Source: Sclerodactyla briareus
Lineage: Eukaryota > Echinodermata > Holothuroidea > Dendrochirotida > Sclerodactylidae
Length of the DNA: 64,000 nucleotides
Direction of reading: 5' to 3'
Assembly (NCBI GenBank): GCA_026419785.1
Contig: JAODTK010005680.1
Coordinates: 124,001 to 188,000 of the forward strand
The notes below the pieces were generated by a model. It searched no databases. It saw nothing but the letters and a program-made list of their open reading frames with translations, and was not told the DNA's origin. Each line of letters begins with the position of its first letter. The first letter of the stretch is position 1. Shown one piece after another: positions 1 through 60,330 of this stretch. The translations under genes were made by a program, and so were the position numbers.

Positions 1-111
1 GACCTGGCCCCAAAGCAGTAGTGATCTTGTACTCATTATGGCACGCACGTACCAAGTATAAGCTTCATCAACTCAGACCTGATCAATTCATCGTGTTTGC
101 AAGTTGTGCGT

Positions 112-146
112 CACACAAACACACACATACACACATACATAAACCC
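112..146. repeat. CA microsatellite of copy 1
   Basis: A short imperfect (CA)n run follows the start landmark of the macro-repeat. The same position holds CA-rich tracts in copy 3 (28858-28945) and copy 4 (44253-44281), so it is part of the ancestral unit. Confidence 0.85.
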
Positions 147-589
147 CATAACTGACATGACTGCATAGATTCCTTTGGGACGATCGTAAAACAATCAGAA
201 AGCCATGTTGCATGACAATGGAGTGTTTCTTGCTATTATAAAAGCGTAAAATTGTGGCACCTCTGTCATTCATCCGGTTACTTTTCATATCCGGATAAAT
301 TCAAAGTTGGCTCAACGTTTAGTTGCTTGTTTTGAACTTGATTTGGAGATTTTTGGCTGATAATGTTAAGGATGATCGTTGGGTGTTTCGTCTTATGAAA
401 GGCGAGAGCAGAAATCCTGGGACAAGATTGACGCGTTCTCAGATCCCAATGAGTATGAATATTCAGCGATAGTCAGGAGATGTCGATGTCATGGTTTTCA
501 ACGAAGACCTTTTATGGTCCTCACTCAGAAGTTGAGATTCGAGGTGATCTTCCTGTGTTACTTGAGTTTGTCTGCACGGTAATAGAAAC

Positions 590-1045
590 AATCATTCAGT
601 TTCCTTGATAAAGAATATTGTTGCCAGACTATTTAGGCCACACGTGAGACCTCACCTCGAGTATTTCGTTCAGGTGTGCAACCCTTACTCTTCGAAGGAT
701 GAACAATTGATTAGAAACGCCCGAGGGGATATGTTAGATTGACTAGCTGTCTGAATGATTCATTGCACGGAGAAAGATTGAGGCGTCTCCCTTTGAACTT
801 CGAGGAAGCCGAGGTGTTAGGGTGACTCAGGTTTGAGTCTTTCTTTCAAAAATCGTTAATTGATTAGGTGTTGACAACGTTCGCTCTTGTAATAGACAGG
901 TGTGAAAATATCCTTATTTTTCCCCATGGATTAGCCGTGAGTGTCCGGTTTTAACATGTTCCAATGTTACATAGGCGTAAATTTTCCCAAACGTTCTCTC
1001 AGTTATCACAGTTGTGGAACGTAGAAGGGTGAGCCACATTTCGAG
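590..1045 (+). pseudogene. LINE reverse transcriptase C-terminal relic, unit copy 1
   Basis: Reading across frameshifts, 600-720 gives LFRPHVRPHLEY followed by QVCNPYSSKDEQLI. This is the end of the palm/thumb region that CR1/L2-like non-LTR reverse transcriptases carry just before their C-terminal tail (LVRPHLEY..VW.P). Further downstream a GERLRRL-like stretch matches the usual YEERL..L position. Equivalent relics lie at 29345, 44695 and 2455. Stops and frameshifts are many, so no product is expected. LINE origin rests on motif recognition; the clade is uncertain. Confidence 0.6.
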
Positions 1046-1094
1046 CAATTTCCCATTTTCGGGCTCCTGCTTTATTTTCGAGGTCTACCATTTC

Positions 1095-1515
1095 ATGCGC
1101 GATCTTCTCTTAGTTCAATCACGTATACTACAAATATGCATAGATGGTATAGAGTATCCGGTTATTGATCTGTTATTTGCAGCTTCTAATGAAGTGTTTC
1201 TCATCACCCAGTTCGTGAATTTGTTAGAATGATCGATTGGATAGCACAGTTGATAGATCGTCGTCTCAACCATCAGGGAGAAATCATTAACGCTCTTAGA
1301 CCAAACAACATCTGCAGGGGGTAATCCAATCATTGGTCACTCTTTGCAAAGAAATACACTACTTCCAATGTTCAATTTGCGAAGTTTACCACGTAGCTTG
1401 ATTGACCCCTAATGGTCCTATTAGTTGTACCAAAAAACAAATTCGAAGTTGTCGGAAGGGAGGCCATCGAAGCCATTTACATTTTTGAAAACCTGAATCA
1501 AATCACCCGAATTGA
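1095..1515 (-). pseudogene. CR1-like LINE 3' end on the minus strand
   Basis: The minus strand reads, with frameshifts, through FEFVFGTTNRT-like sequence (near 1430), then WSKSVNDF (1250-1290). This is the order expected for the last ~100 residues of a CR1-like LINE protein: a GTTNRTRGH-like stretch, then VINDWN.LP..VV.AKSVN.FK. Bases 1400-1510 are nearly identical to 41380-41485, where the upstream RT portion of the same family survives. It lies exactly where copy 1 switches from one part of the macro-repeat to another, so it probably took part in the rearrangement. Confidence 0.68.
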
Positions 1516-1807
1516 CCACAATTTGACAAGAGGTGATTAACACGCAGACGGCAATGTGTTAATCGGAGAGGACCTTGCTGGATGAGTACAAGAACGTGGA
1601 ATCGTACAATCATTTGTTCATTGGCCTGACGCCTAGATGATTCAGGCCACGAAATTTCACGAAGTACTGGAACGACAGGTGCACGGAATTTTTCAGGCGA
1701 GGGCGTAACCACTCGGGGAATGGTCGGGTTCGGGGGAGAGTTGAAAGTGGAACCCATGGCAGACTCTTTGAAAGTCTTTATTTACACGAGTCGACGTATT
1801 CATTTGA

Positions 1808-1838
1808 ATAAATAAATAAATAAATAAATAAATAAATA
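1808..1838. repeat. TAAA microsatellite, copy 1
   Basis: About eight units of (AATA)n. The same position in copy 2 (26590-26650) and copy 3 (38667-38787) also holds this repeat, at very different lengths. Confidence 0.9.
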
Positions 1839-2454
1839 GCTCATTACTGCACTGGATACCCATTTGTTCTGGACCTTCTCCCAAACTTTCAATGTTTTGG
1901 TTCCGCCCTGGTAGTACAGGGTATTAGTCAAAGCTTCGGGCGCCCGCACCTTTACCATTCACAAACTGATGCAAACAAAATGCAAAAGCAATGGGTGTAC
2001 ACACTTTGGAGGTCATGTTCGGGTCGATCTTCAAATTTTCCACTGTCTGCCTTTTTCTTCGGTTTAAGAAATCACGGATATCGGGATTTTATTATTTTCC
2101 CTCACGCGGTGTCATATGCTGTCAAAAGAAATGCGTTGTTGTTGATAGTGTGGTTACAGTGACATTGTGGCCACAATCAATCGATTATATACGCGTACAC
2201 AATCAGTTTTTGTTTTTTGTTTTTTGTATACCACAGGCAACGATATTGTAAACGTTGACATAGACGAGAGAGATTTGTATTAAAGAGGGGTAATCTTTAC
2301 TGAGCTGTACCTTAATAGCTGATAGATAAAGATTTGAACCACACTGAAATGTTGTATGGGTTTCAACGGAGACTTTTTCCGGTCCTCACTCAGAAGTTGA
2401 GATTCGAAGTGATCGTCCTGTGCTACTTGGACTGTCTGTCACGTGATAGACAAT

Positions 2455-2690
2455 CATTAAGTTTCCTGATAAAGAATATTGTTGTCAGACTATTAAGGCC
2501 ACTCGTGAGACCTCACCTTCAGTATCCCGCTTTCTAGGTGTGCAACCCTTACTCTTCGAAGGATGAACAATTGATTAGAAACGCCCGAGGGATATGTTAG
2601 AGGCATAAGCTGCTGACGGTCATGCATGGGGAAAGATTGAGGCGTCTCGATTCGACTTCGATGAAGCCGAGGTGTCAGGGTGACTTAGTT
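2455..2690 (+). pseudogene. Second copy of the unit's LINE relic
   Basis: This repeats 590-830 within copy 1: LRPLVRPHLQY is readable, followed by the same CNPYSSKDEQLI stretch after a short insertion (CTTTCTAGG) also present in copy 4 at 44786. It was brought in by the rearrangement that joins 38510-39430-like sequence to 44605-like sequence at 2346. Confidence 0.55.
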
Positions 2691-2819
2691 CGAATTTTTC
2701 TCTCAAATCGTTAATTGATTAGGTGTTGACAACGTTTGCTCTTGTAAATATTATGGTGGTGAGATATATCCCTATTTTTCCCATAGGTTATCCGTGAATG
2801 CTGCATGGGGTTTAACCAT

Positions 2820-3840
2820 TAGGTTTTTCGATTCCTTGACAGTCCGAGGATCTTGCATCATACAGTGTGTGGTGTATGTGTGTCTGTGTACGCTGGCTTG
2901 TAAACGCATAAACTCGACCCCACCTAGATGGAGAGCTCAGACTTTGTATGTGTTTTCCCCAGGATAAGTACATGGACCCTATTGTTTTGGGGTCAGGTCA
3001 GAGGTCATATGAGGTCAACAGAGGTCAAAGTCTGAAAAACCTTGTAAACACGCTAAGTCCAGAATGGTCGGTCTTATCAAGTTGAAATTTAGTGTATAGC
3101 TTTCGTTTGGAGAGTACAGGAACCCTATTGTTTTTGGTTCAGGTCAGGGTGAATTTTGATCAAAAATGGAAAATTGTGAAAGTCAATATTTTGGCCAATT
3201 TTGGCTGTAAACACGATAACTCAATCCCACCTGGATGGATGATTTTGAAGTTATTCTTGGTATGGTGTGTTCACCATTGGATTGACGAGTACTGGAAACC
3301 TATTGTTTTGGGGTCAGGGAGAGGTCACATGGGGTCAACAGGGTCAAGATTCTTGTAAACACGATAATTCTAGAATGGTTGGTCTTATCGAGTTGAAATT
3401 TAGTGTATAGCTTTCGTTTGGAGAGTACAGGAACCCTATTGTTTTTGGTTCAGGTCAGGGTGAATTTTGATCAAAAATGGAAAATTGTGAAAAGTCAATA
3501 TTTTGGCCAATTTTTTGACTTTAAACCCCCTGATAACTTACCTCACCCGGATGGATGAAGCTCATGGCTTGGTATTTGATTTCACCCTGATGATACATGA
3601 ACCCTATTGTTTTGGGGTCAGGTCAGAGTTCATTTGAGGTCACCAGAGGTCAGAGTCTGAAAACCTTGAAATTTAGTGTGTAGCTTCCTTATCAATATAT
3701 AGAGTATAGAAGCCCCATTGGTGTTGAGAAATTTGTCAGACGTTATGAGCTGGTTCAATCTCCCATTTGTCCATGTGTCTGGCTATAGGTTGTCAGAAAA
3801 ATGAAATCAGGAATCACTAAGCCTTTTGGCTTCCTGGATT
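2820..3840 (+). repeat. GGTCA satellite with ~312-bp higher-order unit
   Basis: The phrase CCCTATTGTTTT recurs near 2976, 3122, 3298, 3434 and 3601. Two monomer types alternate: one continues GGGGTCAGGTCAGAGGTCA, the other TTGGTTCAGGTCAGGGTG. The pair repeats every 303-322 bp. Adjacent monomers share TGTAAACACGATAA. Copy 4 has no such block at this point (45085-45100), so it was gained in copy 1. The reverse complement of related monomers forms the edge of the macro-repeat at 28075, 40820 and 43255. Confidence 0.85.
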
Positions 3841-4389
3841 CTTAAGGGCCGAACAGGTTCCAATGTTACACAAGCATAAATCATACACAAAACGTTTTCC
3901 CTCAGTTTTCACTTTTGTGGTATACGTAGAGAGGTGAGCCACATTTTCGGGAAATTCTTAATTTTTTTCTGATTTTCAGATTTTTTTAATATTAAACGCC
4001 GCAAACAGTTTTATAATCTATTCTGCTGACATCAGGACCACATATAATTTAGGAATATAACATCTCTATCAATACAGCCGTTGGCATGCCCGATTCAAGT
4101 ACAACTTATATTGACGCATGTGTACAAAGTTTTTCGGGGGATGCCTCCACACTTGTGGTAGTCTTGTGGCAACGCTTCACCAGACTTTCTCCGAACTTTC
4201 ATCCCAAAATAGCCTTACTGTGTAGTGTGATTCTTTAGTGAAGTCTGTTATTCGAGTGTCCAGAAACTCGCATATACGTTTTGATTTTCGTCCTTGTGTA
4301 TTGAAACATGTCCATCACTTCCGTGAACTTTTGTTCATTTTATTCTTTGATTTGGGCAAATCAACTTTTTTTTTGTGATAGAGGCCTCA

Positions 4390-4545
4390 TCTGTTCATGC
4401 TTCACTCCTGATTTTCTTCTCTTCTTCGTTGTGAAGCGCTTCGAGGCATTGCAGTGAGCGCTATATAGGCACCACTTTATTATCATTTATTATTATTATT
4501 ATCATTATCATTATTCTGTACTATCAATAATTATTATCATGTACT
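4390..4545 (+). mobile_element. LINE 3' tail with TTATTATC repeat
   Basis: The stretch CTCATCTGTTCATGCTTCAC, then GTGAAGCGCTTCGAGGCA, then GCGCTATATAGGCACCACTT leads into an imperfect (TTA)n. This is the typical 3' end of a non-LTR retrotransposon or of a SINE that shares its tail. Copies 3 and 4 retain more coding sequence upstream (30475, 45830). Confidence 0.6.
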
Positions 4546-4559
4546 ACTTACCTGAATAG

Positions 4560-5330
4560 TCATTCTGAGTGAGGATATGACCCAAATATCGTGGGTGGAT
4601 TCATTCATCTTGATCCCTTGACATGGCGGCGTGAGCTAGATATTTTGTTCACATGATCGACGCCTAAATGATTTATGCCACCATGCTCTGATCATCTAAC
4701 CATAGAACTCCATGAGGGGAGCCTCGACTATCTGAATATATCACCATGATCACCATGCCCTTCAATGGCTTACGTTTTGAAGAGACCGAAAGTTCTAGGC
4801 ACAGTGATATAATTCACGCTGTGATATGCCCGGGGCTTATTTGGCATATTGGGTCCCACAGCGAGCAGGTGAGCAGGAAGCTCCTGCGTTTATATAGGCA
4901 GAGTAAACTTTATCAACACCATTCGGGCGAAAGTAATTTCCCGCGAGAAGTGCGTCGAAGAGGATATAATATAACAGCAACATTGCTCATAAGAAACACC
5001 ATTTGCGGGTCTCTTGTCTATGATTCACTGTTTTCCAATGCATAAATGCATAGAATGTAAATTCAAAGACTATATTTACGTCAACGTGCGCCCCGGGTAT
5101 TTTTTTCTATCGACTTTTGGCGCACATTGGCAATAGGCCAAGACTCAAAGGACTCGAAGTAGGTAACTAGAATTCTCCACGGAGCGTGCAGAATTATTTA
5201 CAGCTAATTCCAGGGCATCGGATGGAAATTTCATGCCCAGACTCACAAATGTATGTTCTTACGCAATTGAAATAGTATTCGTACGAGGAAGGCGTTTTGA
5301 TGGGGAGGGGGTAATGGTTAATGTAAGGTT
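4560..5330 (+). other. Conserved non-coding block of the unit
   Basis: This block is preserved in copy 3 (32510-33305) and copy 4 (46345-47140). The best-kept stretches are CTTGACATGGCGGCGTGAG, GCGAAAGTAATTTCCCGCG and TTTTTTCTATCGACTTTTGG. In copy 1 a 99-codon open frame crosses it (4746-5045), but the frame is not kept in the other copies, so I do not call a gene. It resembles no family I recognise. Confidence 0.6.
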
Positions 5331-5333
5331 AAT

Positions 5334-5380
5334 CTATTATCTATCTATCTATCTATCATCTATCTATCTATCTATCTATC

Positions 5381-5415
<35 letters not shown>

Positions 5416-5449
5416 CTATCTATCTATCTATCATCTATCTATCTATCCA
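5334..5449. repeat. CTAT microsatellite, copy 1
   Basis: An interrupted (CTAT)n tract of about 115 bp. The matching tract in copy 3 is 33306-33424. Copy 4 lost it with a ~600-bp deletion. Confidence 0.95.
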
Positions 5450-6519
5450 GTATGTAACATCTGCGTTTTGGGCAAATGTTTTTCTTCGCGACGGATGCTA
5501 ACCATACTTGGGAACAATGTTTACTGGTCCATGAGACTATCTTTGATATCAAGATTTAGGTCAAAGATGATTAAAGGGGTAAAATGGGTCATTATGTTAA
5601 AAACTGCAAATTGCTGCTTCCGAGTTCTACAGACAAGGTTGTAATTACCATAGTATTTGGTCATTGTTGAACTAGTGGCATACCTAGGGGGTTCAGGGAT
5701 TCCATTGAATCAAGGGTCATCGAAGGGGCATAATGAACTATCATGTAAAAACTGTTATTTGTGTGGTTCGAGCTACATGTTGATGTACACTGCATGACGC
5801 TGTTTGCTATTTTGTACTTCATTACCTGGAGAGAAGCTGCGAATCCGCCAGAAACGTACGTTATCAAACATGTATTCAAAGGACGTGTTTGTTTTAATTT
5901 GTTTTTGTTTTTATTCGGTTTATTCCATTCTCAGCACATTGGATTTTGAAAGTCCCCAGCTGAGTTCAGCCCGACAGTGTTGCTGCTGCATGCAATGCTA
6001 CGAAACACTGCCACATTCACACAGGCTAAATGCGGCTATTGATTTTCATTTCATATTTACGAAAACGAACGTTCGTTTCAGAAGAGAAAATACAGTAAGT
6101 CTAGGCGAAAAGACCATAAAAATGCAGCATCTCATGCATATTGGCGTAATTTGTCCTTTTTTTTATTAGGAAGAATACCCGTAGAATTCATTCGCGGTGT
6201 TACGCATCCTCATACGTGTTGGTACAACTCGCTTTTTCCGCCTATTCAGTAATGGTTTACTTTCATCTAGAATTGTTTTGCCTCTGTTGAGTCGATATAT
6301 ATCTTTTCAAACTGACTGAGACATCTTCAGTAACTGGCCTCATCTCAGTTCACCTGGATTCGCGGTTCTTCACATGCGTTACCGCAGAACCGCACCCGCC
6401 CCAGACCCCCAGCCAAACATTCCCAGCGCATACGCAAGCAATGGACCCAGCCCAAGTCCTGTCCGACATATAAATATATGCTGACCGTTTGGCTTGCGAC
6501 AGTCGCAGTCATAATAACG

Positions 6520-6571
6520 GTCTCCGAGTGACTGCAAGGTGTGAGGCGATGACCTGGAGACTGTAGTCACT
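6520..6571 (+). other. Pseudoknot-capable block, copy 1
   Basis: GTCTCC (6520-6525) can pair with GGAGAC (6556-6561), and AGTGACT (6527-6533) with AGTCACT (6565-6571). The pairings interleave, as in an H-type pseudoknot. The block is among the best conserved parts of the unit and recurs at 34448-34499 and 47679-47730; in copy 4 the last base of the second stem is changed. I see no sign of what it does; transcription is unproven. Confidence 0.35.
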
Positions 6572-7369
6572 GCCAAGGGTCAAATGTCCGCAAACCCAGC
6601 GAACTGCGGCTGCAAGGTTTTGGGAATTTTGAAATGTTCAGGAATTTCCTCGCGCCCAGATAGATTTGTTGGTGCAAATACTTGTTAGACATGTGCATTT
6701 GGGTACCGGGAATACCTCAACGGAAGTATACCTTTAGGCTATGCGTGGTCCAGTTTTTTTTTTTTTTTGTGACTCTCGGGGGGCAACCACACAGAACATT
6801 TGAAACGAAACGTATCCCTGTTCTTCCTCTGTTGGCATCCAAAACATACGTTCTCTGCTTGCAAATGCTTGCAGTCTATGGCAAAACTGACTGTAAGCTC
6901 ACAAGATTCCGCAAGTGATGACTGCAAGAGGCGACCGTAAGCATATTACCGCGTTGCACGGGGAGCAATATCGTGCTGTGTTTCCCTGGGTGCCTGAAGT
7001 TTATGTTAATTTTATTGTGACGTCTTTTACTAGGCTAATTTAAAAATGAACATCATACGTTTGAGGCAAATTGCGTTTTTTTTCGCGTATATACCCAATA
7101 TTTGCTAGGTGACTTGGTAATAATTGACAAGTTATCTCGGAAACCATGCCCTCTGAATAGAGAATCACCAAAGAAACTCCAGCATGAGTGAGAGTCAATT
7201 GTATTGATCACGGAATTATGATTTTTCGTCAAGAGAGTTTAATAGTGGTGGATGCAAACTACGTGCTAATAGTTGAACCCCTAATCGCTTTTAGAGATAG
7301 GTTGATCACGTCGTATCCTCTTACAAAGTAATAGTCTATACGGACGGATGTTGGACTTGACAAACGCTA

Positions 7370-8170
7370 TCAGCCGTACTTTATAAGCCCCCAGGTTAGT
7401 ATGAGCCACGCACACCCGTTTACGAGGTATTTGATTGCTATCCGACCGAGGCTAACGACCTCTATCTTCGAGCGCAACAGCATTATTTGTCAAAATGCAT
7501 CTCTGCTGTATAGTGCGTGGCGATTGATTATGATGAATCTGTACCGAACGCGCCTCAAGCCGTCAAAACGGGTCTCGATGTTTTATACTGTATTCCATCA
7601 GAACTAACATTCTGATGGGGTCTCGTGAGGTGATTAATTCCGACTGAAGCAAACACTTGTATCTACCTTAGCCGCGCATTATGGTCGGTGAAGATGTAAT
7701 CAGTTAGCCGGAGCCGTATGCATGCTCTACTACGAAGCCGAGGTGATTGAATTCGAAAGTAAATATCCCTACTTCGAAATCCATTAGCTAATTCGCATGT
7801 AGTAGCCCGTCATCCGTTTGTTTGAGACGTTCCTCTAAGATTATTGACTCCTACGTATAAGCTAAGACTTAACGAAGCGGATTCCGCTACGTCTCTCTAG
7901 ATTAGTAAGTATTCGGTGAGTATTTACTCCGACGGTCCGACCTAGGTTAACGACCGTATCCTGGAAGCCAACAAAGCAAACAACGGACTTGCTCCAACAA
8001 GTAGTCCGAAGTGATCGATGGTGAGTTTATAATGACTGTGCCTATACGATGAATCAAAATGCGGTATTCTATGTCTCGGTGTTTCAAACCGAACTAGCTG
8101 AGGTGAGTGGTTTTGTAAGAAGCTATCGAGGTTGTTTTGAAGAAATGTTCATAATGGATAGGATGCATAA
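7370..8170 (+). repeat. Module M1, copy 1 (cryptic 80-120 bp repeats)
   Basis: Variants of a GACTGAGGCTAACGACTGTACC motif recur through the module: CCGAGGCTAACGACC near 7446, CCGACTGAAGCAAACAC near 7638, GACCTAGGTTAACGACCGTA near 7938, and CGAAGTGATCGATGG near 8009. The same order of words, including GTACCGAACGCGCCTC, occurs in module M2 (39460-40330). M1 and M2 are therefore old duplicates. A 68-codon frame here is not conserved as protein. Confidence 0.6.
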
Positions 8171-9679
8171 TACGATTTCCCTCTGCTAGCTATAACTTAC
8201 AAACAAATAAACAACGAATGGCAATCCCTGGGAGTTGCAAATAGTGAGAAATTATCAGAATATGACTGGAAAACGCCCCCTTCATCGTCAAATCCCTGTT
8301 TGTAGTTAATTCAGCATAATCGCTCGGGATTCATTATGTTCTGATAGGTTTTTACCGCGTTTCAAAATTTGAAACTATTCGGGTCTGCCGATCTCCCCCC
8401 CACCCCTTAAAAGGTAAAAAACAAAGTTCGGGCAAATACGTTTTCCCCCTTTGCAGCTGACTCTTGGTAATCTTTGCCTAATTGCATGATCAAATTGTAA
8501 CTTGTTCTTTTCCTCAGAGTTGCAGAATCTCAATGGCATCTCCGAAATATGACATCATACGTAATTTTATCTCCAAATATCTCCCGAGTTACAAACAGTG
8601 AATTATCAAAATGGGATTGAAAGAGTAAACGGTTCCTCCCCACCCCCAAAGAGGGGGGGTAAAAAGGGTTCTATTCGCATTCTCTAAAGTGTTTGAAAAA
8701 TACGTCAAGTTCTTGCCAAAAAAATCGGGTTCTCCCTTTGAAGCCGACATTCTCGATAATTTTTGCCTGATTGCATGGTCCAAAGTTGTAGTGGTGCGAT
8801 TGTTTTAGTGATACAGAATTGTTAATCCAGCCATTCGAACCCGCAAATATCTTGGGAATATTGAAATTTATAAAATTGATTATTTTCCAATTCTTCCAAT
8901 TATTCTCCAGAAATGGTAGCCCCCATCCTAATTTTCCACACATTGATAGGCTAAGGTTTTGCCAACATTTGAAGTGGAATATGTGTTTTGGTCTGTGGAA
9001 ATTCGACAGTTCTGCCTATCCTATCTGAAAGCACAGAACACAGAATGTTGCAGACAGCAAAACGTGCGCGCACACCACAGCCAAACATGGAACACTTTCG
9101 CGGGTGCACCGTGTGCTGGACCTCTCAGCCCTATGAGTAACCTACTGTCACCCTCAGGATAGTTCTTAACCACACAATTGTTACCATAACAACATTGGCT
9201 TGGCCCAGTTTATGTAAATATATCTGTATACTTTTATTGGTAACATTAACTCTTTCCTTTCCGATGAGCCTGACTATAGCTACCTACTAAAGCAGACGAT
9301 GAGGACCGTTTTCTGAAATAAAGGGGTTACTTTCTGAACTGTATACTATGGTCGTATATTCCTACATTTGTTTAGCATTGAGGCAAATCACGATTTGGGT
9401 AGAGCGTCACCCTGCGCAGAAGAGGAATGATCTGATACGAGGTGGACAGTGTCCAACGCCTGTTTCAATAGGCTGGACTATAGCCTGCTGAAAGCAGGAC
9501 GAGATGAGGCAGCGTTCCTAAGTGGGGGTATCACTCTTTATATATATCATAGTCGAATATACCAAAATGAGTGAATGAGCTGTACGAGGTGAACGAAGTC
9601 AATCGCCCTTCGCACAGGCGAGACCATGGTCCAATAATACCAACTATTAGTCTTGAGCTGGTACGTAGGTAAAGTCAAC

Positions 9680-9695
9680 GCCTGTTTCAACAGGC
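9680..9695 (+). other. GCCTGTT hairpin, copy 1
   Basis: GCCTGTTTCAACAGGC is a 7-bp stem with a 2-base loop, followed at once by TACGCCTGAC. Related sequences sit at the same unit position near 25960, 37315 and 58470, where the stem is partly eroded. A weaker relative occurs near 9455 (ACGCCTGTTTCAATAGGC). Confidence 0.4.
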
Positions 9696-10221
9696 TACGC
9701 CTGACAGAGGTTTACAACGCTGTGACCAATGTGGCTAGTGAAATACATGTTCTGATTATCGATCCATCTTCCATCAACCTTTGTAGATGTATGCTATGTC
9801 TGCTCGGCGGCCACATGTCAGGGAGTACCGTATTCCAGCGTCTTATACTTCGTCCCAAAACCATGCTTTCATGTGACTTCCAAGGGTCCCGAAACTGCGT
9901 GTCCCGAATCCATTGCGGACTTATAGCCGTGGCAAAGCTATCCTACTTCCTTACTGGCGTGGGCATTAGGTAATCCCCTCGAGCTAATTAATAATTTAGA
10001 GAGGCAATGGCGGCTGATGCTTGTAACTATTTGAAGAGAAAATTTGTCCCGTACTGGGAGCCACCTAGCTGGAACAAGCATTGCACCACACGCTACGTAC
10101 TGTTCTCAACTTTAGATTGCGGAAAGGTGCGAAACAAATTGGGTAGAGCAACCTGAATGTACGGTGGCCAGTATGTGTGCATGTGGCATCACCACCATGG
10201 AGTGCATCGCCTTCCAACACG

Positions 10222-11120
10222 GCCAGGGGACTTTTGGCTTCTAGTCTAGAGTAGGGTGACGAATGCCGAATCGGTGTTACATCCGTCGCACGTGGACATA
10301 GCTAGTTTAACAAACATACCCTTTTTTATTCCCGTGCGAAGACAAAAGGAATCTTGCCGTCACGCACCGTGCGTATGCTTGTGTTTGTGTGTGTGTGTGT
10401 TGTGTGTGTGGTGTGTGTGTTGTGTGTGTGTGTGGTGTGACACCCGCTGTCGCACGATATCTAACGAACGCAATAGCTATCAACTCAAATTCGGTCTAAT
10501 GTGGGTTTCACATATAAGAGGAATGAACCCCTGTTGTTCTTGGTGTCATTTCAAGATCATTCAAGGTCCCCAGAGGGAGGGAAAACTTAGAAGCTGTTAG
10601 CACGATATTAACGGAACAAGCATGTATCAGTTCAAATTAGTATAGGAAAATCCTTACATATCTGGCAACGAAACATTTTAGAGGGATCTCGGTAGGAAAG
10701 TTTTGTTTTGGCCGGGAGAACTACATCTGGTGACCTACTTTGACCTCATTTGACCTTCGACTCGTTGGACCTTTTGACCTGTGACATTGGTGCTAATTTT
10801 TTGTGATGACCATATTAGTCTTGGTAGAAAAAAACCATTAAAGTGAATTAGACTATGTAATACATCACTCCGATCACGAGCATCTCAAGGAACGACATGT
10901 GGAAAGGTCAAGCAGCCTAAAACACTGGAATGTTGTTAAATTTGACATCTGACATTGTTTGTGGATGTAAATTTCTGTTCGTCTAGGCGAACTGCATGTG
11001 GTTTCGCTCTGCATGGGAACCTACATGTAGTTGCGATATGAATATTCCGTGTTGGCACTGCCATCAGTAAAGTGATGGAATTTCGTCGCGGCCATCATGG
11101 AGGTTTTGTAGGTGCCTGAA
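10222..11120. other. Non-unit block with TG repeat and TGACCT-rich monomers
   Basis: Unit homology to copy 4 stops near 10221. The block contains an interrupted (TG)n at 10382-10437. Two related ~145-bp monomers begin near CGCACGATATCTAACG (10450) and AGCACGATATTAACGG (10598). A TGACCT-rich stretch at 10730-10790 suggests the same broad satellite family as 2820-3840. I see no gene. Confidence 0.55.
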
Positions 11121-11490
11121 TAATAGATTATTAGGCAAGTGTAGTTGGGGGTACCGGGAATAGCTCACTGGAGTAGTACCTTTAGGCCATTGCGTGGTTC
11201 CAACTTTTGTTAGTGCTTTCTCGGAGGCAACCACACAGAACCTTTGAAATGAAACTTATCCCTGTTCGTCCTCTGTTGCGTATTTTGACTATTTTTTCCC
11301 CAGTGTGCATCCGGCCAAAACACGTTCTCTGTCACAAATGCTTGCAGTCTATGGCAAAAACTGACTGTAAGCGCACAGGATTCCGCAAGCGATTACTGCA
11401 AGAGGCGACTGTAAGCATATCACCACATTGCACAGGAGCAAATACGTCTGTGTTTTCCTGGTGCCTGAAGTTCGAGTTTGGAAGACAACT
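11121..11490 (+). repeat. Stray fragment of the macro-repeat
   Basis: This stretch matches 47826-48185 and 6650-7000, including GGGTACCGGGAATAGCTCA, AACCACACAGAACC and GACTGCAAGAGGCGAC words. It lies inside non-unit DNA, about 900 bp beyond the end of copy 1. It is either a dispersed copy or debris of the event that broke copy 1. Confidence 0.75.
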
Positions 11491-46286: not shown

Positions 46287-46330
<44 letters not shown>

Positions 46331-46331: not shown

Positions 46332-46344
46332 ACTATTCACGTGA

Positions 46345-48534: not shown

Positions 48535-49330
48535 ATCAGCAGTACTTTATAAGCTCCCAGGTTAGTATGAGCCATGCACACCCGTTTTCGAGGTATTGAT
48601 TGCTATCCGACCGAGGCTAACGACTCTATCTTCGAGCGCAGCCGCATTATATGTCAAAAGGCATCTCTGTTGTATAGTGCGTGGCGATTGATTATGATGA
48701 ATCTGTACCGAACGCGCCTCAAGCCGTCAAAACGGGTCTCGATGTTTTTAAAGTGTATTCCATCAACTACATGGCTGATGGGGTCTCGTGAGGTGAAATT
48801 CCAACTGAAGCAAACACGTGTATATACCTTAGCCGCGCATTATGGTCGGTGAAGATGTAATCAGCCGTATGCGTATGCATGCTCGACTAGGAAGTCCGAC
48901 GTGATTGAATTCGACAGTAAATATCCCTACTTCGGAATCCATTATACTAATTCAGAATGTGATATACCCTAACCCGTTGATTAGGACGTACTCTAAGAAT
49001 ATTGACTTCAACGTATAAGCTAAGACTTAACGAAGCGGATTCCGCCACGTCTCTCTAGATTAGCTAGTATTCGGAGAGTATTTCTCCGACGGTCCGACCT
49101 AGGTTAACGACCGTACCCTGGAAGCCAACAAAACAAAAAAAAAACCATAAATGAACTTTGCTTTCAACAGGAGTCCGAAGTGATCGATTGTGAGTTTAAT
49201 AAGGACTTGTGCCTACGATAAATCAAGATGGCGGTATCATTGTCTCTTTCAAACCGAAAGAAGCTTAGTCCGTGAATTTGACAAGAAGCTACTGAAGATG
49301 TTTGAAGACATTTTCATGATGGATAAGGAG
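48535..49330 (+). repeat. Module M1, copy 4
   Basis: Matches 7370-8170 and 35310-36080. An A-rich insertion lies at 49132-49143. Confidence 0.65.
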
Positions 49331-49742
49331 GTAAATAAATACGATTTCCCACGCTACCTTTACAACAAATACCAACAATGTGGCAAGTTCGGGAGTTGCA
49401 AGTATGAAACTTAATCAGGTATGACTGAAAAAACGTAGGCGCAAAAAAACAGTCGGTCCCAATAACGTTTTCCCCCTTTGCAGCTGTACATTCTGGTAAC
49501 TTTTGCTTATTTTCAATGGTCAAATTGAATTTGCCTTTTCCTCAGAGTTGCAGAATCTCAATGGCATCTCTGAAAACAATGAAATTATACAGTTCATTTC
49601 AATCTCCCAATTTTTGCGAGTTCAACAAACAGGAATTTATCCAAACATGGATCGGAAGTAACGTTCCCCCCACCCAAAAAGGGGCTCAACATTGGGGTTC
49701 TATTCGATCTCTAAATGTGGTTTAAAAATACGTAATTCTGCC

Positions 49743-49868
49743 GAACTAGATCACCAATGGTCTGTAGCTCAAACTGCACAAATGTACATGACAATGTACA
49801 TTTTGTTGTAAAAGTTGAAGATCATCAGCCAACGAGGCAGTTTCCATCAAACAATGGCCTATCGTGCC
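49743..49868. other. Left flank of the 7.8-kb block in copy 4
   Basis: Non-unit sequence between the break in copy 4 and the target duplication of element III. It contains the short repeat ATGTACATGACAATGTACAT. No gene is seen. Confidence 0.5.
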
Positions 49869-49876
49869 CCTGTGAT

Positions 49877-52800
49877 CATGGGCGTCGATCCGTTGTGAAA
49901 GTGGGGGAAAAACATCGATGCAAAAGACCATCTAAGCGTAGCGCCACCATTGGTTGGCGCGAATCGGTCAAAGAAAATTTTTAGCATGTCATTACCCTCC
50001 CAATCGCCGGAAACGGCACTTGCCAGACCCCTTTCTATAGCACCCATCACATGTATTCGAGTAAGAGCCAGACAAAAGTGTCATTGTGCATACTAAGATG
50101 ATTCACACAAAGCATATCACACGGATGGTATTTTTTATTACCATTTTGTCTACTCTGGCTTCGTTTGCGTGGGATCCCGGGTCTGCCCAACGGTCCCTGG
50201 TGGGATCGAAGGGAAAAGTTATAGTCGTACGGGACCATTCCATTGGGGACAGTAATATTTTGGCCGAATTTTACAAGATCATTCATCGAAGACTACGAGC
50301 GCGCGCGAAGCGCGCTGAATTTTGTTGGCATGTTTTCCGGCATTGATCGAAAAAGTCAGCAGAAAATTCAGACACAATTTTCAACTTGGCCTTTCTCCTT
50401 TTCCCAATTTTTCCACGATTTTACGGCCGAATTTTTCATTTTTTGAGGGGGGGGGGGTCCGCCCCCAGGCTTTCTTCTGAATATTAAGTCGAGTGAAAAA
50501 AAATGATTCGAAGCATTACAACATCGCATAGTCCCAAGCCGGGTGTAAAAAAACGTTATTGAAAATTTATGCACTTTCGGCCATTCGATTCAAGATTCTC
50601 GAGCACGCAGTATGGAACATGGGTAATCCTTTCGACTTCGGCCCTAGTGGGGGTCCAGATCTTCATCGGGGGTCCGCCCCTGAATTAGTGGACTTAAGAC
50701 AATTTCCACGCTGATTATTTTTCCGTTAGACAATAATTGAATCAGTTTTGACACATCAAGAACCTTATATTATCACTGTGAACCAGCGCACACCCACTAT
50801 AATAAAATGACTAGGTGCACGGTACACTTTCACAGGTTCAGTAAAATTGGGGCAAACCACTTCTCCAGACAAACAAGGTTAGTGATTCCATTTCAGTTTC
50901 ATATATGCACAACTTATATCGGTACTGATTTCGCGCGAAAATTTCGCCACCAAATCCATAATTAAAAAACTTTTCATTTTACTTTGCCCAAATTTCCGCC
51001 ATTATTTCTCCGAATTTTGGGTATTTTGTTGGTCGTGTTTTCACTCTCAAATTTCTGCCCGGCCCGACCCAGTCTCGGATACTATGACTGATTTGCCTAA
51101 GTTTGGTTTTCTTCCGCACCCGTGATATACTTAACCATCTCACTATATTGGGCTTAGATTTACAATACCGCCCGTAACTTCGGGGTTGAAAATGATGAAA
51201 ATATGTTTTGCCAATTAGCAATACTCCGGTGTATCTTGCTAGGACTATTTCAATCCCAGGGCGCAGATCTTTGTGGGTCATTGAACAGGTGGGGACTTTT
51301 TGGAAGTCCGCCGTATACATATGTGTTTTCACTCTTGACCACCTGGGACCCTCACTTTCCATTAGAATTTCCAGCCCCATGAACCGACGGTGGACAAGTG
51401 ACCTGGCCGATCGGCCGGTTCACGGACACAAAAATCAAGAGAAGCCGCTTCTTCTTCCCCAAGGGAGCATCTCCTTGACCCGTTGGTCATTTGACCTTGA
51501 ATTGGTTTTCATTGTACTGGGAACGTTTTTGAACGTGAAACTAGCAACAGCGACGTTGGGAGAGGCTAATACTTGACAAAAATGAAATGTCTGGGGGAAA
51601 TAAGTATGGGATACATATATTTTTCTCAGAAAACATTCCTCACAGACCCGTAAAATACGGATGCATCGGCAGACACCGCAAATATTTTTTTTCCCCAAAA
51701 AAAACGGACCCACTTTTCAAACTTTGAGCGGATTCATATAAACTTTGAGTCTGGTGTCTTTTCATCGAAATTGAACAGATATTAATCATTGAAACGTTTA
51801 TTTCAGTCTACCATTTGCCAGCGATCCGAATTCGACAATGACCTGAGAGAATGCGAATAATTCAATCAATCATTTTGATAAATTAACTCCAGTTCCGCAT
51901 TAGAACCACAAGCGGTGGCACCTGTCGTTACGGATGGGTCCATTAGCTATGTCACTCGGTTCAAGGGCGAGTTCTGTAATGCAGGAGAATTGGCCCTTGA
52001 CTATTACGCAAACCCACTGTGGGCCAGTGCCGCTGGTTGAGCACATCATGAACAATTGGGTCCTCAGGCATTCGTAAGTCGACTGCAGAATATAAATTCG
52101 AAAGAAAAGGAGAAAAAAAGTTGCTGAATGAGCTGGCCTAGTCGTACGGGCCCTCTTCTGTTTTTAGCAGAAAATGTTTTGCCTAAACCGAAGAAAAGCA
52201 GCCCCGCGCGCGAGTGCGCGCGAAAATTTTTACTGTTTTTTTTTTCGGCGTTGTTGATTGGAAAATTAGGGCCAGAGTCAGCAGACATTTTGGGCATTTC
52301 TTCACTTTTTCCTTTTTTGTCCAGTTCCCCGATTATTGTCATTTTTGGCCCTAATTTTTCATCTCAGAATAAAATTTGCGCTCTTCAAGGGCAGTAATGT
52401 GGTAAGTCCGAGCCAGAGTCGACGAAGCAGTTTGGATTTACAATTAATGAATGTGAACCAAAAAAACTATGTTTGTAGCCTAGTTATTCGGTCCAGACTG
52501 GGCGTTTTTTTTAGCTCAAAAATGATTATGGGAGTGAAGATTGAGGATATTTTTTCGCCCTGCGAAATTGTAAGGCCATGTGATTTAATTTGCAGAGAAA
52601 GAAAGAAAAACTTTAAATCCGTCACGGCGGTCTAGATTGATGTTTCACTATGTGGCACAGAGTGAACGTAAGACATTCGGACTAGGCGAGGGGCCTAACA
52701 TTATTAGGGGGCTCTGTGAGAGGGGTATAGGCAGTCAGGGTTTACCGTCCCCTTCGCGAAAATTGGCTTTAGGTGCAAATCAGCCTCTAAAATGTGATTT

Positions 52801-54163
52801 TCTTGTGCGAAAAAGTGCTGTCCACCAAGGGCGATAAGTTTTCTTCTTTGGTGATGGCTTGAATCCTAAACTTTCCATGGGACCACCTTATTGGGATTAG
52901 GGAGAGAAAGGCCTGGAAGTCCGACCGGTTAGCCCATCTAGAGAACCCAAGTTATAATTTTTTCGTTTTGACTCCGTTAGCTCGTAACCTGTTTCTTTCG
53001 ACGGAAATTTTGAATGATATTCATGAAGTTGTTCGAATTTTGTTTGCATTCATGAACGGTAGAACACACAACAGTCGAAAGGTGCTAATTCGCAAACGGT
53101 GTTCTAGTATAGCCTATGATTTAAAAGAATGCTTTTCATCTTTGCTGAATTAAAATTGCTTGCCGGGTTTTTGTTAACATAACATATTCATTCCTATATC
53201 AGCGCATTTACAATGTAGGGAATATCTCGGAAGCGCTCCACAATTGTTGCTGTCTCGTTCGGGATCATGGGCACGGACTGTTTTTGGTGGAAAATGAAAG
53301 TGCAGAATATATTGTTCAAAATTGGGAGTGCATCGTCTGTTCGATGACCTCAGATGGCTAGAAATTGCGAATTTGTCTAGGAAGCAATTGGTAAAATATA
53401 GTCCCAGAATTACAAATTGCACTCAAAATATTTTTCACGGAAGCTCATAGCTATCCGTGCAAGTGGTCTATCAGTACTGACAGCAAAACAACTAACAGGA
53501 TACGAAACGCGAAGTGAGAGTTTCGCATCTTTCTTGGGCACCTCGATAATAGAACCACAAACGTCCAAACTTGACATTGTGGGTCATTTATCCACTTGGC
53601 GGTGCGTATGCTGAATTGTGCCTATTCTTGCCCAAGCGGTTGGTTCCTCGATCTGCAAACTGGCTTTTACTTACATAATGTGTTGCGATTGGAGCCGTCT
53701 GACTCCTCATCCGCCTCTTATGCCAAACGCGCCGCTTCGTGGTATAATAAAGACATTTTATGGTGAATCTACCTTAGTTTAGATTTGTTCCAATTTGTCT
53801 CACTTATGTTTCTGACTACTGGGAAAACTTGCACAAAGTTTCATTCGCCAGGAGTATGCCTTCAAAAGGCCCACCACGACACTATAGAAGCCGCAGTGAG
53901 TGGACAGGTCGCCGTTGCGGAAATTTGAAAAATCGAGGTCGGAATTATAATAAAGGCCACTGTGGTCTTTGTGAGGATGCTTTCTCAATATTTTTCATCC
54001 CACACAGCCACTTAACGGATACGTGTGTTTAAACGGACATGTACTTTCGTTTCTTCATCGAGGATCAAAAGGGGGGGGGACATTTTGATATGATGTCCCC
54101 CCCACTTCGAAAAGTGGGGGGACTGTCCCCCCTGTCCCCCCCCTCAAGGATTTCGACGCCCAG
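49877..54163 (+). mobile_element. hAT-like element III, 4287 bp
   Basis: The ends are CATGGGCGTCGATCC and, read inwards, CTGGGCGTCGAAATCC. Identical CCTGTGAT copies flank it (49869-49876 and 54164-54171). The left end has AGCGCCACCATTGGTTGGCG and one copy of the ~210-bp subterminal unit. The right end has the ~110-bp G/C-run block shared with element II. The interior holds two further CAGGGGCGGA-like ends (at 50468 and 50682) that suggest nested insertions. Frames of 133, 122 and 99 codons (50979, 51208, 52336) overlap on opposite strands and show no hAT transposase motif that I can see. Confidence 0.85.
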
Positions 54164-54171
54164 CCTGTGAT

Positions 54172-55614
54172 GACCTTGACCTGATATTTCAATATGGCCG
54201 CCAAATGTGTCTTAGCAGTCAATGAAATGTTATCAGATTGGTCAACATTATCAAAGAAGACCAATTGAGATGAAAGAAGGCAATTCCACACAGTCGCCCG
54301 TCTATATGGTGCCCCTTAATGAAATTAACCTTCATATGTAAAAGATGTCCCAGTTCAGTGGTGTGGAATGTTGTGCAAAATTTCAATTTGCAAAATGATC
54401 GAAATGACCACTAGATGAAACACCCTACATGTTTTCCATTGGTCAAATGGTAATACTGACAAGAATGATCATCCAATCTATACTCAGGAGAAGAATAGGC
54501 TGCTGTGACGAAGCCACACGGCTGGGGTCAGGTAAGAAAATAGTAGGAATGACTGGCAATGCAGTCTCTGCCACACGTTTGCAAATGGCCAGTCACAAAA
54601 ATTGGCGCGTACTGATTAATAGAATAATAGTGGCAACCTACGAATAAACAATAATGTAGTCCATGGTTGGAACGAAAATAGGCAATGGAGGTGCACATAT
54701 ACTAGATGAAATAAGAAATAATTGATGACTCAGCTTTAACTTGGATGGAGAGCAGGGATGTGTTCAATTATCAAATGGTACAATCACCACAGGCTTGCCA
54801 AGATAGTTTCCAATCCCATGGACCATCCTAACTCCCAGATACTGAGTCCACTGACTACCTACTAAGATCCAGACCCAATGTACCATCAAAATCAGTAACC
54901 TTTCAATAACCCCATTCCAATGCATTGTTTTGCCATGAACCACATAGCCTTTCAATGTACTCAATTATAATTACAAATGCCTGGTTCACTTGGGTAGATA
55001 TATTTTTTAATGAGCAGTCCAAGGTTGTTCCCTTCAACAACTTCCCCATTCCAAGAAAATGGGACAATGGCGCTATTATTTATGTTACACGAGTAAACAG
55101 CCATCTATGCTCTAGAATAACCTTATGGTAATGGATGGCATGACCAGGAGAAGAGTAAGAGTGAACTCCTACTTAATTAAGCTGAAATAGAAGCCAAGTA
55201 GATGGGCTGGTTGTTTGGGGGATGCAGAAATGGAATACCAAAAAATACAAAACACAACAATGAGTCATATCCATTCCACTCATCGCAGCACCTGCGAAGC
55301 CAATCGGCCGCAGCAGGGACAGCAAAAAACGCGGTGAAACTAGTTACATAGGACTAGAGAGAGATGAGCATTTCCCCAATTAGCGGTTTTCTCACAAGGC
55401 CAGGGGCGTGCCTTCAATATGTTTTACTCGCGTTGTCTCAACTTCGTCTTTGTTACAAATCAGTTCTCTACATTAGATGGTAAAAAAATCACAGCAGAAC
55501 AGCGGAACCATGTACGACAGTGAAATTTTAAAGTAAATGTGAAAACGTTAGCTTTACAGTAATAAGGGATTTTCATTTTGGATATACTGGCTTCTATATG
55601 ACTACTTAGGTAGA
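54172..55614. other. Non-unit DNA without a recognised gene
   Basis: No tandem structure or protein motif is evident. CAGGGGCGTGCCTTC at 55401 could be another solitary end of the CAGGGGCG family, with no matching partner in the window. Confidence 0.45.
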
Positions 55615-57500
55615 TTTTTGGGGGTAATTTCAATATGGGCCCCAGGGCCGCCGAACTGTTGCCCACTGAGCCCAAAAATTCCCAAAAACCCCCATTCCAC
55701 GTACCAAGGGACCATTCATGTAACTTGGAAGGAAAATCAATAGAGATTGATAGAGGAGATGCATTGCCAGTACCATTGTGTGAAATTTAATTAAATGGAC
55801 CTCCGGGCCCAAGTGGGACCTTAGACCAAAAATTCCTGAACATCCCGAAGGTAAGGCTGGGAGACCATCATTGGACGGAACCATAAGCATGTGAACAAAA
55901 ATTGGTGGAGATAATTTGAAATTTTACACATGATGGCCTGTATTGCCACTTAGTGACCTTTGACCCTGACCTCCACGAAAGTCGCACATGCCAACGGGTC
56001 AATTAACAATTTGTTTCCAAGGTTTGGTCGACAATTCTGTCACAGAATGACTGTTTGGGGCAAAAAAAGGCAATTGTTGACAAACTGGATTAGAGTAGAT
56101 AGGATGTTGTAGGGCTTGAAAAACCCCATGGTATGGCTATTCCATCATTAGATCGACTCAGCACTGATGCACAAAATGTGTAGGGGCGAAGCAGACGCAT
56201 TTTCGTGTTGGCAAACAGTGATGGGCCCCCAGGCCCACAATGGACCCTCAAGTCCAAAATTTATGAACACCCGAAGGTACGGCTATTAGACCACCATTAT
56301 GGATGGGACTCAGCACTGACTTGTGCAAAACACCATTGTAGGAAGCATTTTGGTGTCCCATGATGGGCCCTCATTGGCCTTGAGTCCAGAAGATTTGCAA
56401 AACACCCCTGTGGAACCACTAAACCCAAGAAGAGTAGCAGTACCGTACCAAGAAGTAAGTGAGTACCACATGTAACTCAAAAAAAAACAAAATCAATTTG
56501 AGCTTGTGGAAGAGATGCCAGTTCATTGTACCAATGTCGTGTGAAAGTCCATTAAAATTCCTAGGGCTACATGAAGGGGACACCGTGGAAAAAAAGTCAT
56601 GAACACCCCGAACGGAAGGTACGACTTGTTTAAACCATCATATGACCGAATGTCAGCACGCTGCACCAAAATTTGTAGAAAGAGAAGAAGCATTTTGCCT
56701 ATTTACATGAGGGCCCACATTGGGCCTGGGTTATAAAATCCCGGGGCACCATGAAGGTACAGCTATGAGACCATCATAAGGAGTGTTACATCAGCATGGT
56801 GCTGCAACTAAATTTGTAGGGAGAAACAATATTTGACAGTATTTATATAATGGGCCCTAGGCCCAAACGGGCCCTGGGACAAATTACTGAACAACCCAAT
56901 GGCCCTCCCACCCAAGGCCCATTACAGTGCTTTGAAGAAAAAACAATGATGGACCAGTGGGAGGAGATGCATTTTCAAGCACCATTGTCGTAGTATCATG
57001 AAATGGGCCGACGGGCCCATGTCGGACTTTGGACCAGAAAATCCTGAACACCCAAAGGTATGTCTATTAGACTATTAGACCATATTATGAACCAAACATC
57101 AGCACTGTGCGACTAAATTTGTGGAGAGTAACAAGATTTTGCGGTACTTCACATAAGGGGCACTATGGATCAAACTGGGCCATGAACCGAAAATTCCTAA
57201 TACCCCCCCCATGACCCTCTACCCAAGGAAACATTACATGTAACTTTGAGAAATCAATGAAGCTTCTGGGGAGGAGATCATTTTCAGGTTACTATTGGTG
57301 AAATTTCCTAAAACGGACCTTCGGCCCAAGTGGGACCTGGACCAAAATTTCTGACACCCCCTGAAGTAACGGCTGATAGACCATCATTATGACCGACATC
57401 AGCACTGTGCCCAAAATTTTGTAGGAGGAGATAACATTTGAAACTTACACATAATGGCCTATCGCCCCTTTAATGACTTTTGACCTGACCATTACAAGTC
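55615..57500. repeat. ~305-bp higher-order satellite (GAACACCC family)
   Basis: GAACACCCGAAGGTACGGCT-like words followed by AGACCATCATTATG and ATCAGCACTGTGC recur near 55838, 56120, 56265, 56600, 56745, 57045 and 57350. Spacing is about 147, 300 or 335 bp. A second monomer with CCCAAGGACCATTACATG and GGAGGAGATGCATTTTC alternates with it, giving a dimer of about 305 bp. GGGCCC palindromes mark monomer joins. The array runs to the right border of the 7.8-kb block. Confidence 0.85.
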
Positions 57501-59039
57501 AAACATGTCCCATTGGGTCAATATTCCAATACCAACACAGCATAGCTGGTTTGAGCTAAAATTCATGTTCTCCTCCTCCCCTCCCCTTCAAAGCCCGACA
57601 TTCTCCGAGAATTTTGGCCTGATTTGCATAGTCCAAGTATGTATTTGTGCTATATATTTTTTACCGGTTGATACAGAAATTGGTATTTTCAAGCCATTCG
57701 ACCGCAAATATCTTGGAAGTATTGAAAAGGTTATAAAAATTAACATATTCTCAAGAAAATGTGATCCCCCATCCCTAATTTTCGCACTTTGATAGGCTAA
57801 GTTTTGCCAACATTGAGTGGAATATGAGTGGTCTGTGTGAAATTCGACCGAGTTCTGCCTCTCCCCTCTGAAAGCAAACCAAGGCAAAATGTGGCATACA
57901 AGCAAACGTGCGCGCACACACACAACCACAACCAGGACATTTCGCGGTGCCCTGATTGCTGGACCTCTCATCACCTATGAGTAACCTCCTGTCCCCCTCC
58001 TTGATATTTCTTAACCATCACCCATGTTACCATAACAATATTTGCTGTGTAACCAGTTTGATTTCAATAAATCTGGATACTTGCTTTGTGCTACATTACC
58101 TCTTTTCCTCTCATAAGCCCTGCTAAAGCGAGCTCGCTGAAGCAGACGATGAGGAAGCGTTTTTCTGAAAAAATTGACGGTGAAGCTCAACTTTCCTTGG
58201 TATACTGTATACTATGTGTCGTGTATTACCACTTTTGTTTAGGCAAATCAACCGATTGTTAAAGCGTCATCTTGTGCATATGAGTGAATGGGGGCTGATA
58301 CGAAGTGAACCAGTCAACCGCGCCTGTTTGAACGGCTAACTATGCCTGCTGAAAAGCATACGATAGGATGAAGCCGTTTCTATAATATGGGGGTATCACT
58401 CTTTTCTTATATATCATGGTCAATCTTACAACCACTGAGTGATAGAGCCTTTATACGAGTAACAAAAGCAACCCTTTCAACAGGCACCTGACAAGGGTTT
58501 ACACAGCTTGTACCAGTCGGGTGAGGACAATGGCCTGTCCATGAGTCCCGATCCATCTTCCATCACCTTTGTAGATTTATTCAAAGATCTCCTCGGCGCC
58601 ACATATCATGCTATAACCGGTGATCCAGCGTCTAACGTCAGGATCAAAACATGCCTTCATGTGAATTCAAGTGTCCCGAAACTGGTTGTGTTTATGGTTA
58701 CCAAATTCATGAGGACTTCTAGAGAACGTGGCCTAAAGCTACCTTACGGTACCCCGGCCGCGCGGGCAATTTGGGTAATCACATGGACTATATAATAATT
58801 GGAGACGTAATGGCAACCTGATGCAATTGGAACTATTTGAAGAGAAAATTTGTCCCCGTGCATGTCGAGTCCACACGAGCTGCAAGCAATGTCCAGCACC
58901 TACAGTTTTGCTACTCAAACCTTTAGATTGCAGAAGCTCGGAGTCAATCCTTGCATGGTAGAGCCAACTGGATGTGCACAAAGTGCCAGTATGTGTTCCT
59001 GTAGTATCAATGCAAGAGTGCAATCGCCTTCCAGCACGA

Positions 59040-59580
59040 CTCCTCGCACTAAAGTTAAGCTAAATATGTATTGTCCTCTGCTAGCGTCCAGCGAAAAACC
59101 AAGCTACGACGGGGCGAATTTTGCATGACGTCACGACAAAATAATCGTAAATGTGGGCTTAATTATGTAAAGTTGAAGCGGATACTTTCTACCTTATTAT
59201 TATAATCAATTTTCTTGGACGGAAAAACGCGTGAAATATACCATTTGGTTACAGTTCATCTGACATTGCTGGTTGCAGTAAATTGTTACAAATGTTAAGT
59301 TAGGAAATCGCACTCCGTTTGTACCTCCAGTAACATGGAATGCACCGTCAAGTTTTTTGAGACCAACTTCTGTCCCCAATCAGGGGAGTTCCTTTTCCTT
59401 AGCATGTAAAATCTGCAAATAGGACAGGAAGTCTGCCCACTTTCGAACCCATCCGAGCATTTCTATGGCGACTCAATTGGATCAGGCTTTAAAGAGGGAT
59501 GCTATGGTTTCCATCGATAGGTGCGGATGTGGGATGCGTCATGACCCCCAGAATACGGATTTACTCCCGAGTACAACATC
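59040..59580. other. Copy 4 segment absent from copies 2 and 3
   Basis: Copies 2 and 3 pass directly to the CATATGCGGTTGGTTTG region (26165, 37600). Copies 1 and 4 share an extra stretch up to 10221 / 59040, and only copy 4 continues. No gene is recognised. Confidence 0.5.
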
Positions 59581-59649
59581 TATATAATATGCGGAATGGT
59601 TTGAGAGATAGAGACGACTTTCCGTAAGCGGCCAATGTCTTCAATTATA

Positions 59650-60330
59650 GAATAAAACCGAGTAGGCAAAACTTGTACGGATGCGGTAGTGATACGTAAC
59701 ATAACGGCAAATTGATTTCATGTTTGATTTTCCCAGTAAAGTTATTTCACGTCCCTATTCATGATTATTATAGCCCCTTTTAAACATAATTACAGTTAGT
59801 TTTATTCTAAAATATCAACCTTCCTCTCAGATTTATTTTTCTCACATTCATACCGCACACCACAATCACATTCGCACCTATGGCATCCTATCCCCCAGGC
59901 TGAGATCCCATAGGACAGATTCGTAAAGCGACAAAACACTATAATAAGTGTACTGCAGATTCCTTCGAGTACGACACGACGCGTGTCCTAATGAGCACAG
60001 TTGGGTGAAAAAAAAAAAATAAGACATTCCGCAACAGTAAAAATCATCCCAATAAAATGGAACGAACACTGAATAGGTCAAATTAACATGTGTACGGGTG
60101 CTGCAATAATGGCCGCATTATGGCAAATTTTTGGTCTACTGTCGCATGTCTCCTAATATTTACTGAATTGCTAACATGTTGCCTTTTTAACATCAAATCA
60201 TTATACAATCCATTCTTTCTGAAATATCAGCCTCTCTCGCGCGAATTATGAATTTTCACCCCCTACAGCACACCAAATCCGCATCTTTAGAATCCTAACC
60301 TAATCGCGCTAACGCCCTAAGTTTCCGGCG
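59650..60330 (+). repeat. Tandem diverged duplicate at the end of copy 4
   Basis: 60075-60330 repeats, with heavy divergence, 59675-59940: AATATCAGCC TCTCTC corresponds to AATATCAACCTTCCTCTC, then TTCACACC or CTCACATTC words, and CACACCAAATCCGCATC corresponds to CACATTCGCACC. The offset is about 400 bp. The second copy has no counterpart in copies 2 and 3. Confidence 0.55.

Follow-up and report, generated by a model that had tools for sequence, protein, structure and literature searches.

A decayed head-to-tail array in Sclerodactyla briareus, probably an old local tandem segmental duplication

Tandem (intrachromosomal) segmental duplications form multi-kilobase head-to-tail blocks at one locus, ignore gene limits and then diverge. 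The human segmental-duplication track, as it is described in PMC3018141, uses a criterion of ≥ 90% identity. Human macrosatellites are described in the same source with units of 2.4–5.3 kb that are 97–100% identical where identities are given, are uninterrupted, and vary in number between people (PMC3018141). In the sea urchin, the description of Sp185/333 includes three segments of 4.5 kb in tandem, which each carry a gene and have GAT microsatellites at their borders (PMC3091723).

A locus in Sclerodactyla briareus was analyzed in a window of 64,000 nucleotides (positions 124,001–188,000 of contig JAODTK010005680.1), and positions given below are those of the window unless the contig is named. 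The array found here is like tandem segmental duplications in its multi-kilobase head-to-tail blocks, which lie at one locus, ignore gene limits and have diverged, and adjacent direct blocks of at least 1 kb, by which such duplications are recognized, are present. Its identity lies mostly below the 90% described for the human track (PMC3018141), a threshold for finding recent duplications in humans, and the array is regarded as an aged example. As in DXZ4, D4Z4, TAF11-Like, SST1 and ZAV, some of which contain microsatellites or repeat pieces, units of several kilobases are arranged in tandem in one place, but in contrast to the human macrosatellites described in that source the unit here is ~12 kb long, at most 92% identical between copies, and interrupted (PMC3018141). 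Like Sp185/333 as described, the array lies in an invertebrate, near microsatellites, and its tandem segments take in flanking DNA that is non-coding, but no gene was found here and a dispersed-repeat piece marks the junction (PMC3091723). Our analysis concluded, with a probability of about 0.85, that the array arose long ago by tandem segmental duplication at this locus, has since decayed and has no demonstrable function. The array is real, but as duplications go it is ordinary, and it does not amount to a giant satellite.

Extent and orientation of the array

The window was compared with itself by BLAST (dust on, E 1e-10, length floor 150 bp), with three first-order Markov shuffles and the reversed window serving as controls. 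This comparison yielded 58 direct matches covering 35,382 aligned bp and no inverted match, and at the same floor no match was obtained in any of the three shuffles or against the reversed window. As background, five further stretches of 64 kb from this contig, which overlap in part, contained 13, 9, 9, 20 and 16 direct matches (3,280–8,155 bp in total per stretch) and 3, 2, 0, 2 and 0 inverted matches. Local direct duplication is therefore common on this contig, and the window exceeds it, its direct total being over four times that of the stretch that comes second.

The whole contig (265,008 bp, 0 N) was also compared, using as reference the most complete unit (unit C, 26463–38513) and a floor of 100 bp. 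All 36 matches to unit C that lie within the array span and outside the unit itself were on the plus strand, and only two matches (341 and 100 columns) lay on the contig beyond the array. The array extends over approximately contig positions 120,862–183,913, or window positions -3,138 to 59,913, about 63 kb at one locus, and both of its ends lie within the contig, flanked by other sequence. An earlier note, made from the letters of the window, had placed the array at 1–59995; its right end agrees with the end found near 59,913, while its left end does not, as the array begins before the window. A wider comparison over the entire array span with a 120-bp floor detected three small inverted matches (133–179 bp, ~77% identical). 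A palindromic structure was rejected on these comparisons, as inverted matches of 150 bp or more were absent from the window and the array span had only the three small ones.

Five units can be counted if truncated ones are included (A0, A1, B, C and D, from left to right), all on the plus strand and with one module order throughout. The pieces are collinear within units, with the exceptions of an internal duplication in D and of the piece at 11077–11472. Both the self-comparison and the unit-C comparison thus confirmed the collinear, head-to-tail, plus-strand macro-repeat that the earlier note had described, and the matches proved collinear rather than scattered, which was the distinction for which a dot-plot had been proposed. 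The proposed count of at least four copies is borne out in number, but A0, A1 and B are truncated and D is interrupted.

The assembly (319,486,128 bases in 3,171 contigs) was searched with three probes, 28762–29762, 4790–8622 and 38347–41373, which together represent 7,861 bp of unit sequence; simple or very common words were skipped and the best 40 of 653, 2,135 and 402 candidates, respectively, were scored. Among these best 40 candidates for each probe, matches on other contigs were limited to pieces of up to about 340 bp, and the longer matches were on this contig only. The short pieces indicate that dispersed repeats lie within the unit, the unit itself being seen at this locus only. A second array of similar divergence should have outscored the short hits, so its absence among the candidates argues against one for the probed sequence. 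The tens to thousands of copies that had been suggested as the mark of a macrosatellite were thus not encountered, the three probes having revealed no second locus in the assembly. One dispersed element of ~330 bp, at 6052–6378, has matches of 73–77% identity on many contigs, some of them locally clustered.

Units, insertions and junctions

The leftmost unit, A0, is truncated and consists of six collinear pieces that are 77–86% identical to unit C by BLAST and cover 2,736 unit bases; it starts before the window, at contig positions 120,862–120,990, and its right part occupies 1–1064, corresponding to unit positions ~2290–3384. A1 (1533–10221) comprises the unit start, a second module with a large deletion, and the middle and tail modules without the final ~1 kb. 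It is composed of nine collinear pieces, the longest of which (4790–8622) is 84.8% identical to unit C by BLAST; a tenth listed piece, 11077–11472, was assigned to B, although it is included in the 6,288 unit bases that the A1 listing covers. Neither the end of A1 nor the beginning of B is present between 10,221 and 11,077. In B (11077–26458), roughly the initial two thirds of the unit are absent. Its left piece matches unit C positions 8107–8476, and after an insertion it continues at 21863–26458, which starts at unit C position 8537 and covers 2,584 unit bases.

C (26463–38513, 12,051 bp) is alone in having all modules as well as both junctions. It contains a stretch of 1.67 kb that is absent from A1 and D (30758–32426, no strand assigned), which includes part of a TTA microsatellite and an ATT microsatellite. 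D (38514–59913) also has all modules, in 14 pieces that are 75–87% identical to unit C and cover 8,222 of its bases, and has a deletion of ~0.6 kb in addition to an insertion and an internal tandem duplication (39598–43797, plus strand), in which 39598–41373 and 42079–43797 are 81% identical at an offset of 2.48 kb.

The self-comparison indicated that positions 1, 28762 and 44138 share one register, with 1–1059 and 44138–45202 being 82.5% identical and 114–1064 and 28906–29846 being 77% identical. The same landmark order had been proposed to recur from these three positions and from 21860; it does so from the three, but 21860 is out of register, lying ~8.5 kb into the unit where B resumes past a stretch of 10.39 kb. 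The C-to-D offset is 12.1 kb in the head, 12.8 kb further along, 15.2–15.4 kb past the internal duplication, 13.1–13.8 kb in the middle, and 21–22 kb past the insertion in D. It drifts because D has the internal duplication and a 7.8-kb insertion and C has the 1.67-kb extra stretch. The period of 15.4 kb that had been taken as fixed is therefore one part of a drifting offset, and unit C is 12,051 bp long.

Three insertions, none assigned to a strand, interrupt the units. The largest (11473–21862, 10,390 bp) has no counterpart in the other units and was read as an insertion into B because unit C holds just 60 bp at the equivalent site. It shares six collinear matches with contig positions 49,742–53,217, and close to its right end (about 21809–21830) there is an A tract of some 20 nucleotides; these two features suggest that it is probably derived, at least in part, from a transposon. 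No Pfam domain was detected across it in six frames of 8501–23502. B also contains an insertion of 1,526 bp (22690–24215) homologous to contig positions 103,137–104,661 (79% and 87%), a second copy located ~20 kb upstream of the window. The insertion in D (49743–57583, ~7.84 kb), whose limits were taken from the A1–D comparison, yielded no Pfam domain in six frames of 49001–64000. LTR-like or inverted ends were considered for the three insertions and rejected, two having no end-to-end match and the third a single 12-base match.

At the C/D junction the unit ends in a piece of a dispersed repeat of ~168 bp (38347–38514, plus strand) with an imperfect hairpin at 38417–38453. Counterparts were found at 26309–26458, at the B/C junction, and at about 59802–59980, at the end of the array, and short matches to it occur on nine other contigs among the 63 listed. 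The array's right end maps to window position 38453 or 38515, depending on the comparison, and its left end, compared with D, to 38513. The array therefore starts and stops near the same unit boundary, in agreement with the prediction of tandem duplication.

Divergence and tests of constraint

The BLAST pieces of the array are 72–92% identical and contain copy-specific insertions and deletions, and modules aligned with MAFFT are 66–93% identical, the lowest values including poorly alignable parts of C. A single array pair of at least 1 kb exceeded 90% (A0–D, 91.5% over 1,451 columns, with the A0 side outside the window), and the remaining pieces of at least 1 kb were 77–85% identical. In the head of the unit, informative sites (collapsed) supported C with D at 63, A with D at 116 and A with C at 41 sites, placing A and D closest, and in the middle the corresponding counts of 120, 111 and 142 were near star-like. 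The difference in site patterns between head and middle (chi-square 36.6, p about 1e-8) fits several rounds of duplication or exchanges. A test for mosaic tracts inside modules was negative in all three modules, as 199, 26 and 197 of 200 permutations attained the observed maximum. Exchange between units might have given a positive result, and this negative outcome was counted against our preferred explanation.

No Pfam family was detected in six frames of 45 of the 64 kb (8501–23502, 28761–43762 and 49001–64000); the other stretches (1–8500, 23503–28760 and 43763–49000) are mostly homologous to those scanned. As a positive control, the Pfam search recovered RVT_1 (E 2.6e-12) in a LINE-type reverse-transcriptase relic outside the window, at approximately contig positions 56,145–56,630 on the minus strand. 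Searches with Rfam at gathering thresholds and with ARAGORN found no RNA family and no tRNA in the window. These tests agree with the statement in the earlier note that the unit holds no intact gene. The note had composed the unit of satellites, microsatellites and LINE relics; its satellites, as far as was seen, are microsatellites only, and no reverse-transcriptase domain was found by Pfam in the 45 of 64 kb scanned. A protein-coding cluster of a known family was considered and rejected, with no Pfam domain in those 45 kb and no clear coding pattern.

Among 70 pairs of open reading frames, pN/pS was defined in 67, with a median of 0.65 that is biased downwards because the pairs were selected by protein similarity. 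The seven lowest values (0 to 0.34) were all on the minus strand, each with at most seven changes and some in overlapping frames. In the middle module, three windows of 100 columns (on the A1 side about 5001–5100, 5964–6062 and 7394–7494) reach 95% identity or more in A1/C, A1/D and C/D alike, and identity in the window that follows the first of them drops to 67–74%. Mismatches in well-conserved blocks displayed no consistent excess at third positions when judged by eye, and the conserved blocks contain single-base indels.

Under selection, private changes should be depleted at the same sites in every copy, and this expectation was used as a test of constraint. In the middle module, private changes were correlated between copies at 0.05, 0.23 and 0.25 (permutation p 0.31, 0.04 and 0.03), and in the two head modules the correlations were zero or negative (p ≥ 0.39). 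Private changes thus share little pattern along the unit, with a weak signal in the middle module which, together with the conserved windows, could reflect constraint. What speaks for function, and speaks weakly, is confined to this middle-module signal and the minus-strand ratios.

Origin of the array

What is seen is a block of ~12 kb with no recognized gene, already holding pieces of dispersed repeats, that lies head-to-tail at one place in the assembly, and in the explanation that we prefer it was copied there by tandem duplication. Judging from its position, the small hairpin-bearing dispersed repeat at the right unit end may mark one break of the first tandem duplication, at or near that repeat. 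Later rounds would have proceeded by unequal crossing over or by replication-based duplication, after which the array would have decayed under little or no selection. Of the three readings offered in the earlier note, the segmental array, suggested there to be heterochromatic, comes closest to this explanation. The other two, a macrosatellite and a decayed giant transposon, fared poorly, since a single locus with divergent, interrupted copies, and no second locus by the three probes (7.9 kb, best 40 candidates each), argues against both a mobile element and a high copy number in the assembly.

Identical units may be collapsed by assemblies, and the contig could in principle display the collapsed or degenerate edge of a large, polymorphic, locus-specific macrosatellite, an idea with which the tandem arrangement of several-kilobase units at a single locus is consistent. 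It is nevertheless very unlikely, as the units are only 72–92% identical and carry insertions of 1.5, 7.8 and 10.4 kb, and as the array ends within the contig on both sides, leaving no collapsed edge visible. Some transposons (Helitrons) carry a hairpin at one end, and the ending of the unit at a hairpin-bearing dispersed-repeat piece might point to a giant transposon in decay, inserted once or several times in tandem. This is highly unlikely, given that the three probes (7.9 kb, best 40 candidates each) did not find the unit elsewhere in the assembly, that the 45 kb scanned contain no transposase, helicase or reverse-transcriptase domain, and that the hairpin is part of the ~168-bp element, which occurs without the unit on nine other contigs among the matches listed. 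An assembly artefact, such as haplotypes joined end to end, is extremely unlikely, as the contig is free of N, the copies diverge beyond the usual allele level and carry different insertions, and the best-covered module is present in at least three copies.

A tandemly multiplied functional non-coding locus (a regulatory cluster or an lncRNA), or a gene whose small exons are absent from Pfam, in either case partly under selection, is improbable. The conserved blocks of 100–200 bp that the copies have in common, the positive correlations of 0.23 and 0.25 and the strand shared by the lowest pN/pS values are in its favour, but the single-base indels in those blocks, the lack of a third-position excess by eye, a median pN/pS of about 0.65 in a set chosen for protein similarity (67 defined), and the absence of private-change correlation in the two head modules all speak against it. 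Somewhat more doubtful still is its narrower form, in which the unit would be a multiplied lncRNA or regulatory cluster whose 100–200-bp blocks are kept by selection in each copy while the DNA between them decays.

As an old tandem segmental duplication, the array illustrates how, in a long-decayed duplication with no recognized gene, the period drifts, the limits of the units become hidden and insertions nest, and how it can pass for a giant satellite. The wider consequence is small unless the conserved blocks prove functional.

Several other repeats were observed on the contig outside the window. A multi-kilobase direct duplication (82–85%) links contig positions 6065–9992 and 41897–45804, about 35.8 kb apart, and shorter blocks duplicated in tandem (82–92%), whose units measure ~1.37, ~1.08 and ~0.63 kb, are located at contig positions 31148–33764, 99923–102069 and 229617–230890, respectively. 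A tandem repeat with a 32-bp offset at contig positions 194939–195628 contains an open frame of 230 codons and other long, overlapping frames on the plus strand.
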